Source of the DNA: an uncultured bacterium
GTDB lineage: Bacteria; Patescibacteriota; Gracilibacteria; Absconditabacterales; Absconditicoccaceae
Length of the DNA stretch: 64,000 nucleotides
Assembly: GCA_937872535.1 (NCBI GenBank)
Contig: CALMTC010000007.1
Span: 1 to 64,000, forward strand
Reading direction: 5' to 3'
Shown here: piece by piece, positions 1,700-42,136 of the stretch
How positions within the stretch are numbered: position 1 is the first letter of the stretch
How the letters are laid out: the number at the start of each line of letters is the position of its first letter
Program-made: the position numbers and the translations under genes
The notes under the pieces: generated by a model
The model's input: the letters and a program-made list of their open reading frames with translations, nothing else
What the model was told of the DNA's origin: nothing
Databases searched by the model: none

Positions 1700-4285
1700 T
1701 TATTGGCAAGATTCGCACATGACTTTTTCGAATGGATTGGTAGGGCAAGCGTCGCCGTAGAGTTGACCAGATTTTAATTTTTCGACATAGTCGGCTCATT
1801 TTTCAGAGATGAGTTTTTGTTCGATAAGTTTTTTCTGTTCGTCGGTGACATTTTTGAAGTCAATAGAGCTGAGATCGTTAGCTTCTTGCTCTGCAGCGAT
1901 TTTTTTGATGACTGTGATTTCGTCTGATGGCTGAGATGCTGAGATGCTACTGGCTGCCGCTCCAAATCATCTCGCTGCTGGCTGAGCTGAGGAAGTAGAG
2001 ACTGATGCTGTCGTAGTCGAACCAAATCATGCTCTTTCTCCACGCTTGTTGACAGATTCTGTATATTTTTCTCCTTGGATAGTTTTTTCTATGAAACAGT
2101 AGTATGTTCCTTTGAGTCCAGCTTTTCGAGCGTAGACATAAACATCAAACATCGTCGATCTACTTTCCTCTTTGAGGTACATATTTCTACTGATAGCTTG
2201 GTCAACATGTTTCTGAAGAGTAGCTGCTATATCAATCTGGCATGATGGAGAATATTCGTAAGCTGTCTTGAAAATAGATTTATTGACTACTCCATCAAGC
2301 TCTTTGATATGCTGGATACTTCCACCAGCATTGATAATTTTTGATCTCATGTCATCATTTCGTAGACCTTTTTCTTTGATTTTTTCCACAAGCTGTTTGA
2401 TGATGATCGTAAACTTACCACCAAGCGTTTCTCTTGAATACACATTGGCAAAATAGCTATCTACAGTACTTGATGTACCAGCAATCAAAGAGATCGAAGC
2501 TGTAGGAGCTACAGCTAATAAAAGTGCATTTCTTCTGGCTTCATAAGGATATCTACTGGCATCGTAATCAGCAAAAGCTCCTCTTATTTTTCCTAGTTCT
2601 ATCGATTTTTCAAGGGCATGTTTATAGATGAATGCTCCGATATGATCAGAAAGTTTTAAAGCTTCTGAGCTATCATATGAGATACCGAGATCGATAAAAA
2701 GCTCTGCTAATCCCATAAATCATAATCCTAATGGTCTCAGATCCAAAGAGTTTTTTTGAGCTTCCTGTGATGGATAAAAGTTCACATCAACAACATTATC
2801 AAGTGCTTGGATTCCTATTTCTATCGTCTCTTTCATCTCTTCTCGATTGATGAGAGAGAGCTTTTCTTCGAGAGATAATGTTTCTATGTTTTCTTTTTTG
2901 AGTTTTTGAGCATTAACGAATCTCGGAAGATTGAGAGAGGCTAGTGTACAAACTGCAGTACTATTTTCGCTATTCGCAATAGAAATCTCTGTACAAAGAT
3001 TTGAACTGTGAATCATACTATAACTCATAGCTTGATTTGATTCATTGTGACGATCTTTGAAGTTGAATCGATAGTTTCCTGTCTTTGCAAGTCTCATAAG
3101 ACAGTCTCTATAAAGCTCCTGTGCTGGAAGTTTTTTGAAAAGTGCTAATTTCCCCTCCTTTGCCATTTCGATATATTCGGCATAAGCCAGAGAAAATTCT
3201 TTTCATCGTGTAGAAGTAAGTTTTGGACATTCAGCTGGATCAAAAAGATACCAATCTTCATTTTTCACTACTCTTTCCATAAATTCGTCTGGAATCCAAA
3301 GAGCCGTGTTGAGGCTTCTTGTTCTTACATATTCGCTTCCGTTTGTTTCTTTGAGATCGAGAAAATCGTGAATATTGTAGTGCCAAGGCTCCATATAAAT
3401 TACCTGAGAAGATCTTCTTCTTCCACCTTGCATAATTCAGTTAACAACTGTATCAAAAATCTTGATGAATGGAATCGGACCAGAAGATTTAGCGTTGATT
3501 GATTTGATGTGAGATCCACCTGCTCTCAGTTTTGTTACTGATGAACCGATTCCTCAAGCATATTTTGCAAACATCGCTGCTTCTTTGGCTTTGTCCATAA
3601 TAGAGTCCATACTGTCACCGATTACACTGATGTAACAAGATGATAACTGACTAAATGGCGTTCCACTATTGTAGAGTGTCGGAGTACTGTGAAGATATTT
3701 GAGAGCTGACATTTTGTTGTAGACTTTGACCGCAAATTCTTCTTTGTTTTTTTCTGAGATAGAAAGTCCCATGGCTACTCTCATCCACATCCACTGAGGC
3801 TGCTCTATAATTTGTTTTTTTCTGTCTCTAATCAAATATCTATCCTTGATAGTAGCAAGTCAAAAATAATTAAACTCATCATCAAGATTGTGATTTAGAC
3901 TCAATTCTAATGTTCCTAAATCAAAATCGAGTAATTTTTCTGAAAGAAGTTTTTCTGAAACTCCATACTGAATATATTCGGCAAAACTATTGAATCTTCA
4001 AGAGACTGTCTTGTTTATCATTTTTACTAGCTGTCTCGTTGCTATTTTATCGTACATCGGATCTTCTGTAATGAGCTGTTCGATAGCTTTCAAAACAATC
4101 TCATCTAGCTCCTCTGTTTTTACTTGTTCTGGAATTTTGAGTTCAACATTTTTGATTACTTTGAAGACAGCAACAAATGGATCATCAAGCTGAAGATCAT
4201 GAACTATATCCTGAATTGCTCTGATAATTTTTTCTGTCTGAAATGGTTCGTGAGAACCGTCTCTGTGGATTACAAATTTTGCCAT
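1700..4285 (-). CDS. nrdA: Class I ribonucleotide reductase, large (alpha) subunit
   Basis: This 861-residue enzyme reduces ribonucleoside diphosphates to deoxy forms with the NrdB radical subunit. An N-terminal ATP-cone (MAKFVIHRDGSHEPFQ) is present. Active-site cysteines are visible at about 217 (SQLSSCYIS), 431 (SNLCTEI, with Glu 433) and 446 (TAVCTLASLNL). A YYCF segment carries the radical-transfer tyrosines. The C-terminal tail ends VMCESCQ, the mobile cysteine pair for thioredoxin or glutaredoxin. A Ser/Ala-rich linker precedes the tail. UGA codons are spread through the core, for example in the GIGSS and GFMGLAEL segments. It is the last gene of a minus-strand unit nrdB, acidic ORF, nrdA, with NrdR-like boxes upstream of nrdB. 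Confidence 0.95.
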
Positions 4286-14861: not shown

Positions 14862-15256
14862 TCGTCCCAGTCGAATGAATAAAATTTTTCCGTTTACATT
14901 TTTGTACTTATAGTAAAAACTTTTTGAGATACAAGTGACAAGGCTATAGAAAAATTTTTGACGCATTGAAAAATAAATTTCTTATTTAAAAATTTTATTT
15001 CTGGTAAATATTTCTTAAAATACAGCTGCAAAACAATATGAATGTAAAAATGTAGATGCAATAAATTGCGTCTCTATAGAAAATTATTTTCTGGTAAATG
15101 TAAAAAATTAAAAATCTCGCTGGGTAATAAAACTCGTTGTTTCTCATTTTCTCAATGACGACGAAACAATTTCTATGATTTTGATTTTAATTATGGATTG
15201 CCGTGCTCCGCTCGCAATGACGAAATACAAGGGCAGAATAAAAAAAATTATATAAA
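14862..15256. other. Intergenic region with repeats
   Basis: This 395-bp gap holds a degenerate copy of the AGACGC/GCGTCT inverted repeat followed by AAAATTATTTTCTGG (about 15050-15097) and a GCTCGCAATGACG patch like one at 62839. No gene is supported in it. Confidence 0.6.
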
Positions 15257-15597
15257 AAAATCTAGGCATAAGCCCGATTCTGTTTTGTGGTAGAATTTGT
15301 CTGAGTCGCGTATAGCGAGTTTGAGCACTTTCCCTTTCAGGTAAGCTTGCACCAGCTACGGTTTACCGCTCGACGAGCATCTGCTCGACTGAGGTGAAGT
15401 ACCGATCCTGCATTGCTGCGAGATCTGATCTTCTCGTTGCACCTTTTACACCGCTAAAGCGGGTTAGTTTTCGTCTCTGTGGCACTTTCGTTTGGTCTGC
15501 CTCTCGCAGACATCCAGCACCCGTTAGGTGATAGCTTTTTGATGGTGTCGGGACTTTCCTCTCCAGTTACCTGGAGTACTACCTGTCTAGATTTTCT
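15257..15597 (-). ncRNA. rnpB: RNase P RNA
   Basis: On the minus strand the transcript contains GAGAGGAAAGTCCCGAC (the conserved P4 5' strand) near its 5' end and CAGAATCGGGCTTATGCC near its 3' end. The termini pair perfectly (AAAATCTAG with CTAGATTTT) to form P1. Length is about 341 nt, normal for a bacterial type A RNA. It processes tRNA 5' ends with RnpA. Ends are set from the P1 pairing and are approximate. Confidence 0.93.
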
Positions 15598-27973: not shown

Positions 27974-29596
27974 ATGAACATACCAGAAAAAAAATTTTTA
28001 AATGAATCTCATGATTTAAATGAGAAAAATACTTATTTTCATGTCCAACATGAATTTTACAAATTTTATGAAAAGCTCGATGGTTTCTCTAAATTGATTG
28101 TAGAAAATTTTTTACATAGATTTAAAGATCCTAGTGAAAAAAATATTGCAGAGGATGAAAAAATTTCTGCTTATGATGTAGTTTATTCTCCTCTTAACAT
28201 TTCAGATAATGATCTTAAAATTCTTCATGCTTTTTTGTGATATAATCCGCTTTTTGTCAATCACGGAGAGGTCACACCAGACTGATTTGTAAGACTTAAT
28301 TACATTTTGAACCAAGCGATCTTCCACTGCAAAAAATATCATTCAATCTCTATCGGTGATGAATTTTCTTACCGAATGACTGGCGATCAATTTTCTCTCA
28401 AAGAAAAAGATGATTATCTCTCTTTACTCGCCTTCTTATCGAGCAAGTATCACTTAGAATTTCATGATGGAAAACCTCAGAAAAATGAAAAAAATTCTTG
28501 AAACACGACTCACTATGTTTTTTCTCAACAGAAAAAAAAACTCACGACTCTTCTGAGACACTGTATTTTCTTAAAAATCCTCTATATCGTCTCACATCTA
28601 GAAAATAATCCTGTTTTTCGTGATAGAGTTTGAATTTTTAATGAGATTATCCATAAGATTTTTTCTCCTCTCTTTGGTGAAAAACTTAGCATAGATATCG
28701 AATCTAATGAAGCTGAAATTCATAATAATGTAAGCGTTTTTCACAAGGGAAATATCCATCTTGACGAAGAAGAAAACCATAATATTACTTTTTGGTGAAG
28801 AGTAAAACAAACTCGAAGTGCTCACTCTAAGCTTTTGAGAGATCGTAGCTATAGTAATAGCGAAGCAATGAATGACACTTTTGCTTTTACTTTTGAATGT
28901 GAGAATCATAAAGAATTACTTTCAATCCTTGCTTTTTTTGCTGATCATATAGAAAAACATTCTCTTTATCATCAAGAACTTGCTCAAGATAGTAACGATC
29001 GAAGAGAAACCCAGGTTAAAGATAAAGGTATTATTATTACTGATAATGAGTATCGAAATCAGAACATTGATTTACTCTTGCATGATGAAAATATTGATCT
29101 TAAAATCAAAGAAAAAATTAATCGTATTTTTCAAAAAAAATCTTTAGATAAAAAAAATCATTCTGGTAAAGACTATGTCGATATTAAATTTCTTATCCCT
29201 CTCGATGTGAGATGATGTCGTTTCAAGATTGAATTAAAATTTGTCATCAAATGAAATAAAAATGAGTTTGGTTTATCTCACCATAGTATTTTTGATTTAG
29301 ATAAAATTATCAAACAGGAGTTCAGAAAATGTAAATTTTTGACTATTTCTTATGTAGAAAAACTTATTGATAAAACTATTAAAGAAAACTGAGTTCTTAT
29401 TGAACAAATTGGCAATTGAGATAAGGAACTCACGAAACAACTTATTTTTGATGATCTTCTCACTACCAAAAAAACGATAGCTGAAAAAGTTTTTGTTGAT
29501 CATACACAAAGTTTTTTGGTAGTACCTAGTATGGTCCAAGATATGAGTGCTAGCAATTACTATCCTCAAAATCTTTCTGATAAAACTAATATCTAA
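27974..29596 (+). CDS. Hypothetical protein, 540 aa
   Basis: A soluble, polar, His-rich ORF with several UGA codons (AFLGYNP, TPDGFVRL, KNSGNTTHY). Residues about 275-320 (GRVKQTRSAHSKLLRDRSYS, then NSEAMNDTFAFTFEC) vaguely resemble the RelA/SpoT synthetase fold, but none of the ppGpp-synthetase catalytic residues can be confirmed. The similarity is weak and could be coincidental. It is monocistronic and ends before a shared bidirectional terminator. No other family is recognised. Confidence 0.6.
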
Positions 29597-29623
29597 AAAT
29601 TTTTTATTCTGATTTCATAAAAA

Positions 29624-29655
29624 AAACTCACACCGGTTACGATGTGGGTTTTTTT
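29624..29655. terminator. Bidirectional hairpin terminator
   Basis: AACTCACACCGG pairs with CGATGTGGGTT (one G-U). It is followed by seven T on the plus strand and by a T-run on the minus strand. It can end the 27974 gene and the minus-strand candidate RNA. Confidence 0.75.
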
Positions 29656-30066
29656 GTATAATTTCTCATACTCTTATCACTGCGAGTCGGTCGTTTCATG
29701 CTCATAACTGAGTCGAAGGTTGACCATTTTTAGAGCTCACAAGCGATCTGATTTTCTTAAGTTCACTAAGACTCTAGGTCTTAAGAGAAAAAAAGATAGT
29801 CAGCACAATAAGGTTAAATGTCACAACACAGTCTTCTTACAGTTCAGTAGATCAGTCCATCCTTTCAGAAAGCATCACTACGAAGCAAATAAGTTTTTTG
29901 AGTACTTTTTATCGAGCTTACAGCCGATATACCTCAAAGTTTCAGTGTCCGCTGAGTATAAGATAAACGAATCGTGAGATCCGAACCTTGTCAAAGCTAG
30001 GCATATGAAATACTTCCTAGATACATAAATCCTCTTAACCGCATCATGTTTCTTCCTTGATTGCGT
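29630..30066 (-). ncRNA. Candidate structured non-coding RNA (about 430 nt)
   Basis: A textbook promoter (TTGACA, 16 bp, TATAAT; 30100 to 30073) points leftward, and a hairpin terminator closes the unit at 29624-29655. There is no UAA/UAG-bounded minus ORF with recognisable content. Several hairpins are visible, for example TAAGAC-GTCTTA at 29767-29783 and CTAGG-CCTAG at 29997-30020. It is not RNase P (present elsewhere) and shows no tRNA-like ends of tmRNA. On the plus strand a TTG-led 102-codon ORF at 29720-30028 exists; its AAG-rich codons differ from the genome norm, so it is less likely than an RNA. Confidence 0.5.
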
Positions 30067-30072
30067 ATAAAT

Positions 30073-30100
30073 ATTATACACTTTTTTTCTTATTTGTCAA
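30073..30100 (-). promoter_or_regulatory. Consensus sigma-70 promoter for the candidate RNA
   Basis: On the minus strand TTGACA (30100-30095) is followed after 16 bp by TATAAT (30078-30073). It is the strongest promoter noticed in the window. Predicted start is near 30065. Confidence 0.8.
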
Positions 30101-30207
30101 AAAATCGTGCACTTTTTTTAGCATTTCATCAAAACAAGCTTATTTAGAGCTTTATTCGATCATCAATTCTCCACTAAATTATATTTGCTCTCATTTTTCG
30201 CATATAC

Positions 30208-31458
30208 TTATTGAACTGTTATATTTTCTATGGCTTTTTGAAAATGATCTGCTCTGTCTGCATAGTCTTTGAACATATCAAAACTAGCGCAGCCTGGACT
30301 GAGTAAAATCACTTTAATGTGGTTTTTCTTGGCATACGCATAGGCAAACTGGACAGCCTTTTCCATAGAATCAACTTGATCAGAAGCAATCTGGTTATTC
30401 TGAAAAATAGCTGAAAACTGAGGAGCTGTAGTGCCGATAAAAACTCAGTATGCAACATGGCCTTTGAAGATCTGGCTCAGATGCTCAAATGTCTCTCCTT
30501 TATCTGATCAGCCTGCTATCAGTACTATTTTTTCTGAAAATCATTCTAGAGCTGCTGAAAGTGAGTGAGACGAAGTCGATTTACTATCATCGTAAAATTT
30601 TATTTCATCCAAAGTTTTGATAAGCTGTGTACGATGAGGTAATGGCCATATTGTTGACCATATCAAAGATTTTTCATCCAGAGAAAAAAGTTTTAATTCT
30701 GAATGATCACTAATGTACTGATTGACACATTCACAGCAGAATGAAATATTTTTTTGATTATGTTTACCAATAAAATTCGTTTTTGAAAGGTCAAATTCTG
30801 ATGTATATTGCTTGGTTTTCTGCTGAAGATCTGAAGAAAGTTTTGATCGAATTTCAGGATTTGTTCGAGCTTGTTTTTTTGTATATTTCAGGATATTTTC
30901 CTTGGTAGCAAAATAATCTTCAAGATGGGGATGTCGATTCAGATGATCTGGACTAAAATTGAGAAAAACTGAATAATCAAACCAAAAATTTTTTACTTGA
31001 TAGAGCATAAAAGATGACAGTTCAATCACAATGAGATTTTTTTTCGTAGATCAACTTTTTGCTATATCCACTAGCGTCTGAGAAAATGGAATATCAAAAT
31101 TCCCAGAAAGATGAACTTGATAATCTGGCAAAAGCTTCGTAAAAAGATTGTAAAGTACCCAAGAAGTTGTTGATTTTCAGTCTGTACCAGTGATTCAGAT
31201 GGTTTCTATCGAGCTAGAAAAAGGAAAAACTGGTCGTATTTCACCAATGAAATTGAGTTCAGATTGAATTTTTTCTGGATATATTTGGTAGATAAAATGT
31301 GTCGGTGGCACTCCCGGCGATGGGATAATTTTCTCAGCCTCAGCTAGTTTTTGATCGTCTCTGTCTGTGTCATCCATCATCAGAAACTCTTTTTGAAGAT
31401 AGGTCAAAAAATTACTGAGTCACTGTCCTACTTTTCCTTTTCCGTATACGACGATCAT
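30208..31458 (-). CDS. murD: UDP-N-acetylmuramoylalanine--D-glutamate ligase
   Basis: A 416-residue Mur ligase that adds D-Glu to UDP-MurNAc-L-Ala. The N-terminus MIVVYGKGKVGQGLSNFL is a Rossmann-type UDP-binding start, with a UGA Gly. The ATP loop is ITGTDGKST at about 92. VFLNFSPDHLNRHP is the MurD nucleotide motif, and SPGCASFDMFKDYADRAD is the C-terminal substrate motif. UGA codons join the pieces after SSIETI and after SAALE. Confidence 0.93.
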
Positions 31459-31555
31459 CTGATTTTTTTGCAAAAAATAAACTACTCAGATAGTAGAAAA
31501 AAATTTCAAGAAATCAAGCTGGCGTATTTTTTTTTGAGAAAATTTTCTACTCAAA

Positions 31556-31640
31556 ATTCTTATTCTGGTAACTACTAAAAAATATGAAAACTCGCCTCAC
31601 AATAACGGATCCCTTCGACAGGCTCAGGGGCCGTGAAACA
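31556..31640. repeat. Border motif (reverse) and CCCTTCGACAGGCTCAGGG copy
   Basis: TTCTTATTCTGG (rc of the border motif) at about 31557 and CCCTTCGACAGGCTCAGGGG at 31611-31630. Nothing else was seen between murD and tsaE. Confidence 0.6.
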
Positions 31641-41987: not shown

Positions 41988-42060
41988 AATAATCGTTTAG
42001 TAATTACTCAAAAACAATTGATAAGCTAAGTTTATACTAAAAAAATCAAAAATATATATA

Positions 42061-42136
42061 ACCCTCGCCGGGTGGCCATACTTTTTTGTCATTGCCACAA
42101 ACCCCGCATAAAATTCTATTACTATTTTTGCGGGGT
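42061..42136. other. Structured intergenic region
   Basis: Two hairpins: GTGGC-GCCAC (about 42072-42098) and ACCCCGCA-TGCGGGGT (42101-42136). No ORF and no T-run, so not a plain terminator. Function not recognised. Confidence 0.4.

Follow-up and report, generated by a model that had tools for sequence, protein, structure and literature searches.

The window, a stretch of 64,000 nucleotides on contig C7, belongs to a genome of 1.25 Mb in 23 contigs, and its genes have open reading frames only if TGA codes for glycine, as in murD (30208-31602, minus strand) and the gene for the large subunit of ribonucleotide reductase (1700-4285, minus strand). In-frame TGA codons are also found in the NifU homologues of related genomes. 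The genome uses genetic code 25 (TGA = Gly), and because of this it is assigned to the Absconditabacteria/Gracilibacteria type; code 25 is known from Absconditabacteria (SR1) and Gracilibacteria. Between murD and a convergent plus-strand gene that ends at 29596, a minus-strand unit is delimited by the following features.

30073-30100, minus strand: sigma-70-type consensus promoter TTGACA-16-TATAAT (TTGACA 30100-30095, TATAAT 30078-30073), matching at 12 of 12 positions
29622-30066, minus strand: putative non-coding transcript of about 443 nt, placed from the promoter and terminator positions (start deduced), with no convincing sense ORF under code 25
29619-29652, minus strand: hairpin terminator, predicted to be bidirectional (stem 29646-29629 plus T run), its hairpin core being the same in both copies of the unit

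The original prediction had described a perfect TTGACA-16-TATAAT promoter driving a minus-strand unit of about 430 nt that ends at a hairpin terminator, and both elements are present: the promoter is the sole 12/12 site between 28000 and 32000 and the sole perfect site with a 16-18 spacer on contig C7, and the unit runs for about 443 nt to the T run of a strong hairpin. Genome-wide, there are 12 perfect promoter sites, compared with one site for a reversed control pattern. The terminator hairpin, including its A/T arms, has 12 bp with a predicted mean pair probability of 0.98. Because an A-run and a T-run flank the hairpin, the terminator reads as bidirectional and as common to the unit and the convergent gene. 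What marks an independent RNA gene, namely a promoter and an intrinsic terminator in register without a protein-coding frame, was thus found in the unit.

A genome search located a second copy of the unit at C10:24926-25402. Its comparison with the copy in the window defines three segments.

29661-30105, minus strand: stretch of 445 bp, 100% identical to the C10 copy (base-by-base comparison, 0 differences)
29652-29660, minus strand: A-rich spacer before the terminator; all 4 positions at which the copies of the unit differ lie here (29652, 29656, 29659 and 29660, within 9 nt)
30106-30183, minus strand: most likely a degraded counterpart of the nifU 3' end and terminator found upstream of the unit in C10 (alignment score 47, null mean 13.5)

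The identical stretch begins immediately outside the -35 box and stops shortly before the terminator hairpin. The two copies diverge beyond the T run and also at once outside the -35 region, and their neighbours differ, the unit lying behind murD in C7 and behind a nifU-like gene in C10. The flanks are unrelated save for about 78 nt upstream. When positions 30106-30183 were compared with some 28,000 windows, only the C10 flank scored this high, self matches apart; the relic is short and its alignment is gapped. The upstream flank in C7 is most likely what remains of the nifU end and its terminator, and the nifU site is probably the older of the two. On this reading of the flank, the duplication would be old enough for the flank to have decayed while the unit was kept identical, and would date back further than the identity of the RNA unit by itself would indicate.

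Decayed flanks around an identical unit point to maintenance by gene conversion and/or strong selection, within limits that are those of the transcription unit. Zero differences in 445 bp, set against a decayed 78-nt flank shared from before, is the pattern of concerted evolution. The promoter spacer, which is normally free to vary, is also identical between the copies, and this favours gene conversion over site-by-site selection. For the same reason, gene conversion alone, without selection on the RNA, could explain the identity. Nevertheless, we infer that a conversion confined to the unit is most easily understood if selection first kept the unit alike. Neither a third copy nor a long antisense match is present in the genome, where the best other match is 19 nt.

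Outside this genome, blastn against 98 relatives, of which 48 belong to the same family and none to the same genus, detected no homologue of the unit; in the nearest relatives compared, the identities of NifU are about 62% and less. The weak matches obtained were rejected, being confined to the promoter, to the terminator, or to short A/T-rich segments without extended similarity. Of the perfect promoters sampled in four relatives, most precede protein genes; the stretches without long ORFs resemble the unit only in short A/T-rich matches and have no Rfam match. Phages and plasmids contained no real match; one 20-mer of the RNA was exact in a single viral contig, but the surroundings are unrelated GC-rich phage DNA and the match is attributed to chance, and a second 20-mer matched nothing. 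A scan of GTDB with MurD yielded no recognisable member of the lineage, and the literature searches made found nothing on non-coding RNAs of the Absconditabacteria and Gracilibacteria phyla. As far as visible, the RNA appears to be confined to a genus or species, or else to evolve too fast for sequence search.

The region behind nifU, inspected in up to 29 relatives, holds no comparable unit. Just behind nifU, many relatives (L257-L267) carry repeated TTGACA / TTGAAAACAGTAGACAAAT-like motifs, which look like a conserved promoter or operator, and in several relatives these are followed by a small conserved reading frame starting MKPLKHLLVNIVVNG. Behind nifU, this genome carries the RNA unit in place of the relatives' motifs.

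Near-identical copies at two unrelated loci, together with the absence from all relatives searched, could also be produced by a small non-autonomous mobile element, which moved recently and inherited its promoter and terminator from some RNA gene. We consider this unlikely. Apart from the terminator and one internal hairpin, the unit has no inverted repeats, terminal ones included, and no target-site duplication is visible at its ends; the two hallmarks of a transposable element of the MITE or IS kind were not found. Furthermore, the copy number is just two, phages and plasmids yielded no match, and four differences within 9 nt next to a decayed flank relic are unlike a recent clean insertion.

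The absence of a convincing minus-strand ORF, which was part of the original prediction, was upheld under both table 11 and table 25. A 147-aa ORF on the minus strand, with its start inside the unit, was rejected, since it reads past the terminator into DNA that is not shared with the second copy; sense ORFs continue differently in the two copies. Two further reading frames were considered.

29720-30028, plus strand: opposing 102-aa ORF, rejected as a gene (no Pfam match; 5.5% of dinucleotide shuffles hold an equally long ORF)
29997-30047, minus strand: unproven candidate micro-ORF of 16 aa (MMRLRGFMYLGSISYA), close to the 5' end and preceded by AAGGAAG

The opposing ORF is open only with TGA read as glycine and a TTG start, and its length is within reach of chance. 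The micro-ORF raises a different question, namely whether the unit is a dual-function RNA, whose 5' end would serve as a short mRNA for a 16-aa peptide and whose long 3' part would be regulatory. AAGGAAG stands 4 nt ahead of two ATG codons, and the 16 codons lie near the deduced start. RNAIII and SgrS are dual-function regulatory RNAs, and the unit resembles them in its size range, in having its own promoter and terminator and, possibly, in a short ORF; it differs in that it has no sequence relation to them, its short ORF is unproven and it exists in two identical copies. The coding reading is unlikely: the ORF is short, the purine stretch would be partly base-paired within a long-range stem of the predicted fold, and the longer ORFs on either strand are due to chance under code 25 or are broken in the second copy.

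Folding of the 443-nt transcript gives a minimum free energy of about -109 kcal/mol (z -1.65), and 4 of 100 shuffled sequences are as stable; for the antisense of the unit, z is -0.81. The following elements are predicted.

30055-30065 with 29804-29813, minus strand: long-range stem closing the 5' domain (10 bp, mean pair probability 0.98, single-sequence prediction)
29676-29803, minus strand: 3' domain, consisting of hairpin domains 29803-29748 and 29747-29676 (helix pair probability 0.93-1.0, single-sequence prediction)

An inner 11-bp stem is also of high probability in the single-sequence prediction. A small hairpin can form in the variable spacer of both copies by different pairings, but it was set aside as structural evidence, because random changes keep such a hairpin 13% of the time and its retention is not significant. 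The several internal hairpins that had been noted beforehand are therefore present but unremarkable (z -1.65), and the description of the unit as a large structured RNA receives weak support from a fold that stands barely above shuffled sequences.

An ordinary folding energy and the lack of homologues would also suit a non-functional stretch, in which a chance promoter and a chance terminator surround intergenic DNA and the two copies are due to recent segmental duplication or misassembly. This is very improbable in view of a perfect promoter and a strong terminator that are in register, and of duplication limits that coincide with both. Four distinct flanks on two long contigs amount to two real copies even if one join is wrong, and a recent duplication leaves the clustered differences and the decayed flank unexplained.

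Among 4227 families of Rfam 15, including RNase P, tmRNA, SRP, 6S, ROOL, GOLLD and OLE, none matched the unit at the gathering threshold; with permissive filters and E values up to 10, nothing appeared below E 0.17 and no housekeeping RNA family was returned. The sole Rfam match in the window (cmscan, all Rfam) is an RNase P RNA at 15254-15594 on the minus strand, with 105.5 bits against a threshold of 100. By this score it appears to be divergent, in agreement with reports on CPR bacteria, whose RNase P RNAs are so divergent that detection thresholds were lowered (PMC8172020). ARAGORN detected neither a tmRNA nor a tRNA in the window; the tmRNA gene is located at C19:42824-43197, that is, outside the unit. 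No family fits the unit in the Rfam comparison and the genes for RNase P RNA and tmRNA are elsewhere in the genome, which agrees with the earlier statement that the unit does not correspond to RNase P, tmRNA or SRP. Least probable of all is a highly diverged housekeeping RNA, such as SRP or 6S RNA, missed by the Rfam models: the lowered thresholds needed for CPR bacteria and the narrow RNase P score obtained here leave some room for it, but two such RNAs have their genes elsewhere, the permissive search to E = 10 returned no housekeeping family and the length of the unit does not fit bacterial SRP or 6S RNA.

The suggestion that this is a lineage-specific RNA gene is well supported by an identical second copy bounded by promoter and terminator, by the empty Rfam comparison, by the lack of homologues in 98 relatives and by the separate location of the RNase P and tmRNA genes. 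Our results suggest that the unit is probably a real, constitutively transcribed, putative non-coding RNA gene of about 400-440 nt, present in two copies and confined, as far as the searches show, to one genus or species of bacterium that reads TGA as glycine, and that its product is most likely a trans-acting, abundant structural or protein-bound RNA. In sequence terms, the RNA-gene reading is based on the promoter, the terminator, the lack of a convincing ORF, the two identical copies, the decayed upstream flank and the lack of a known family; from these we infer transcription, action in trans, a role of dosage and the ribonucleoprotein nature of the RNA. Identical copies amid surroundings that have drifted suggest a needed RNA that is absent from RNA catalogues.

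In the proposed mechanism, RNA polymerase would start at the consensus promoter and end at the hairpin terminator, and strong constitutive expression is proposed because the promoter is a consensus one. A cis-regulatory leader or riboswitch was rejected: the unit is closed by a terminator, the gene that follows in C7 runs towards it and the neighbours differ between the copies. Action in trans is likely, because the two loci, one behind murD and the other behind a nifU-like gene, are unrelated, and the same unit would hardly act in cis at both of them; the RNA might serve as an RNP scaffold or as a global regulator. Two gene copies would raise the dosage of the RNA and could be held alike by gene conversion together with selection, in the fashion of rRNA genes. 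The rRNA genes are multi-copy RNA genes kept alike by concerted evolution, and as in the unit their paralogues are at separate loci, the transcribed part is identical and the flanks differ; on the other hand, the unit has no sequence relation to them and only two copies.

Further comparison can be made with the large bacterial RNAs ROOL, GOLLD and OLE, which like the unit are long, intergenic and non-coding (PMC12286853); some of them, ROOL for one, are very abundant and yet without known function (PMC12286853). The unit matches none of these Rfam families. It is also shorter than ROOL env-120, which has 659 nt, and than many GOLLD RNAs, which exceed 800 nt (PMC12286853). In contrast to these RNAs, it is not near a tRNA island, the window being without tRNA, and its folding is far less ornate (z -1.65). 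The genomes of Absconditabacteria and Gracilibacteria are small, and yet two identical copies of a large RNA gene without a known relative are retained here. If expressed, the RNA would be a candidate for an important RNA of the lineage and a clean target for metatranscriptomics.

Three further units were found among the 12 perfect promoters of the genome (C2:25744, C4:59055 and C15:26881), each of about 350-460 nt, with no convincing ORF and no Rfam match.

C4:59082 onward, plus strand: about 460 nt, with a G/U-rich transcribed strand (-163 kcal/mol, z about -8.1)
C15:26880-26410, minus strand: about 450 nt, predicted to form a single long rod that pairs the two ends (z about -6.2), with a hairpin terminator
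C2:25743-25343, minus strand: about 345 nt, with a hairpin terminator (z about -3.5)

All three are single copies without similarity to the duplicated unit, and no homologue was found in 49 relatives. Their predicted folds exceed those of shuffled sequences in stability by a wide margin, unlike that of the duplicated unit. A second fold estimate (430 nt, 20 shuffles) gave z -5.9 for C4:59055 and -4.0 for C15:26881, and by predicted folding these two appear to be stronger cases of structured RNA than the duplicated unit. Both have GTTGATGA at a matching position downstream of the -10 box. Tentatively, the duplicated unit may be an undescribed, dosage-maintained RNA of bacteria that read TGA as glycine, and this small genome may make at least three more large orphan RNAs, all unrelated to one another, from consensus promoters. 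If this were true, a lineage with a reduced genome and a probable dependence on hosts would possess a so far unrecognised layer based on RNA. The duplicated unit and the three orphan units suggest that a large part of the RNA repertoire in these bacteria is missing from Rfam.

Two minor observations concern other elements. A repeated element, which consists of a hairpin with an A/T-rich stem and then GCCACCCGGCGAGGG, is found in the window at 42054-42101 (minus strand), in the locus of the C10 copy (L002:1376-1423) and downstream of C4:45056 (L020); in the C10-copy locus and the C4:45056 locus it is preceded by inverted-repeat-like ends, CCAnCGCAACCTTGTyTGAG ... TTTTGCGnTGG. In one relative (G012, C3:243370-244470, L107, minus strand), another ORF-less unit without an Rfam match lies behind a perfect promoter, and its first 80 nt or so are GC-rich and apparently paired (GAGGTTCAAATGCTGG...CCAGCGGAGCCTC).
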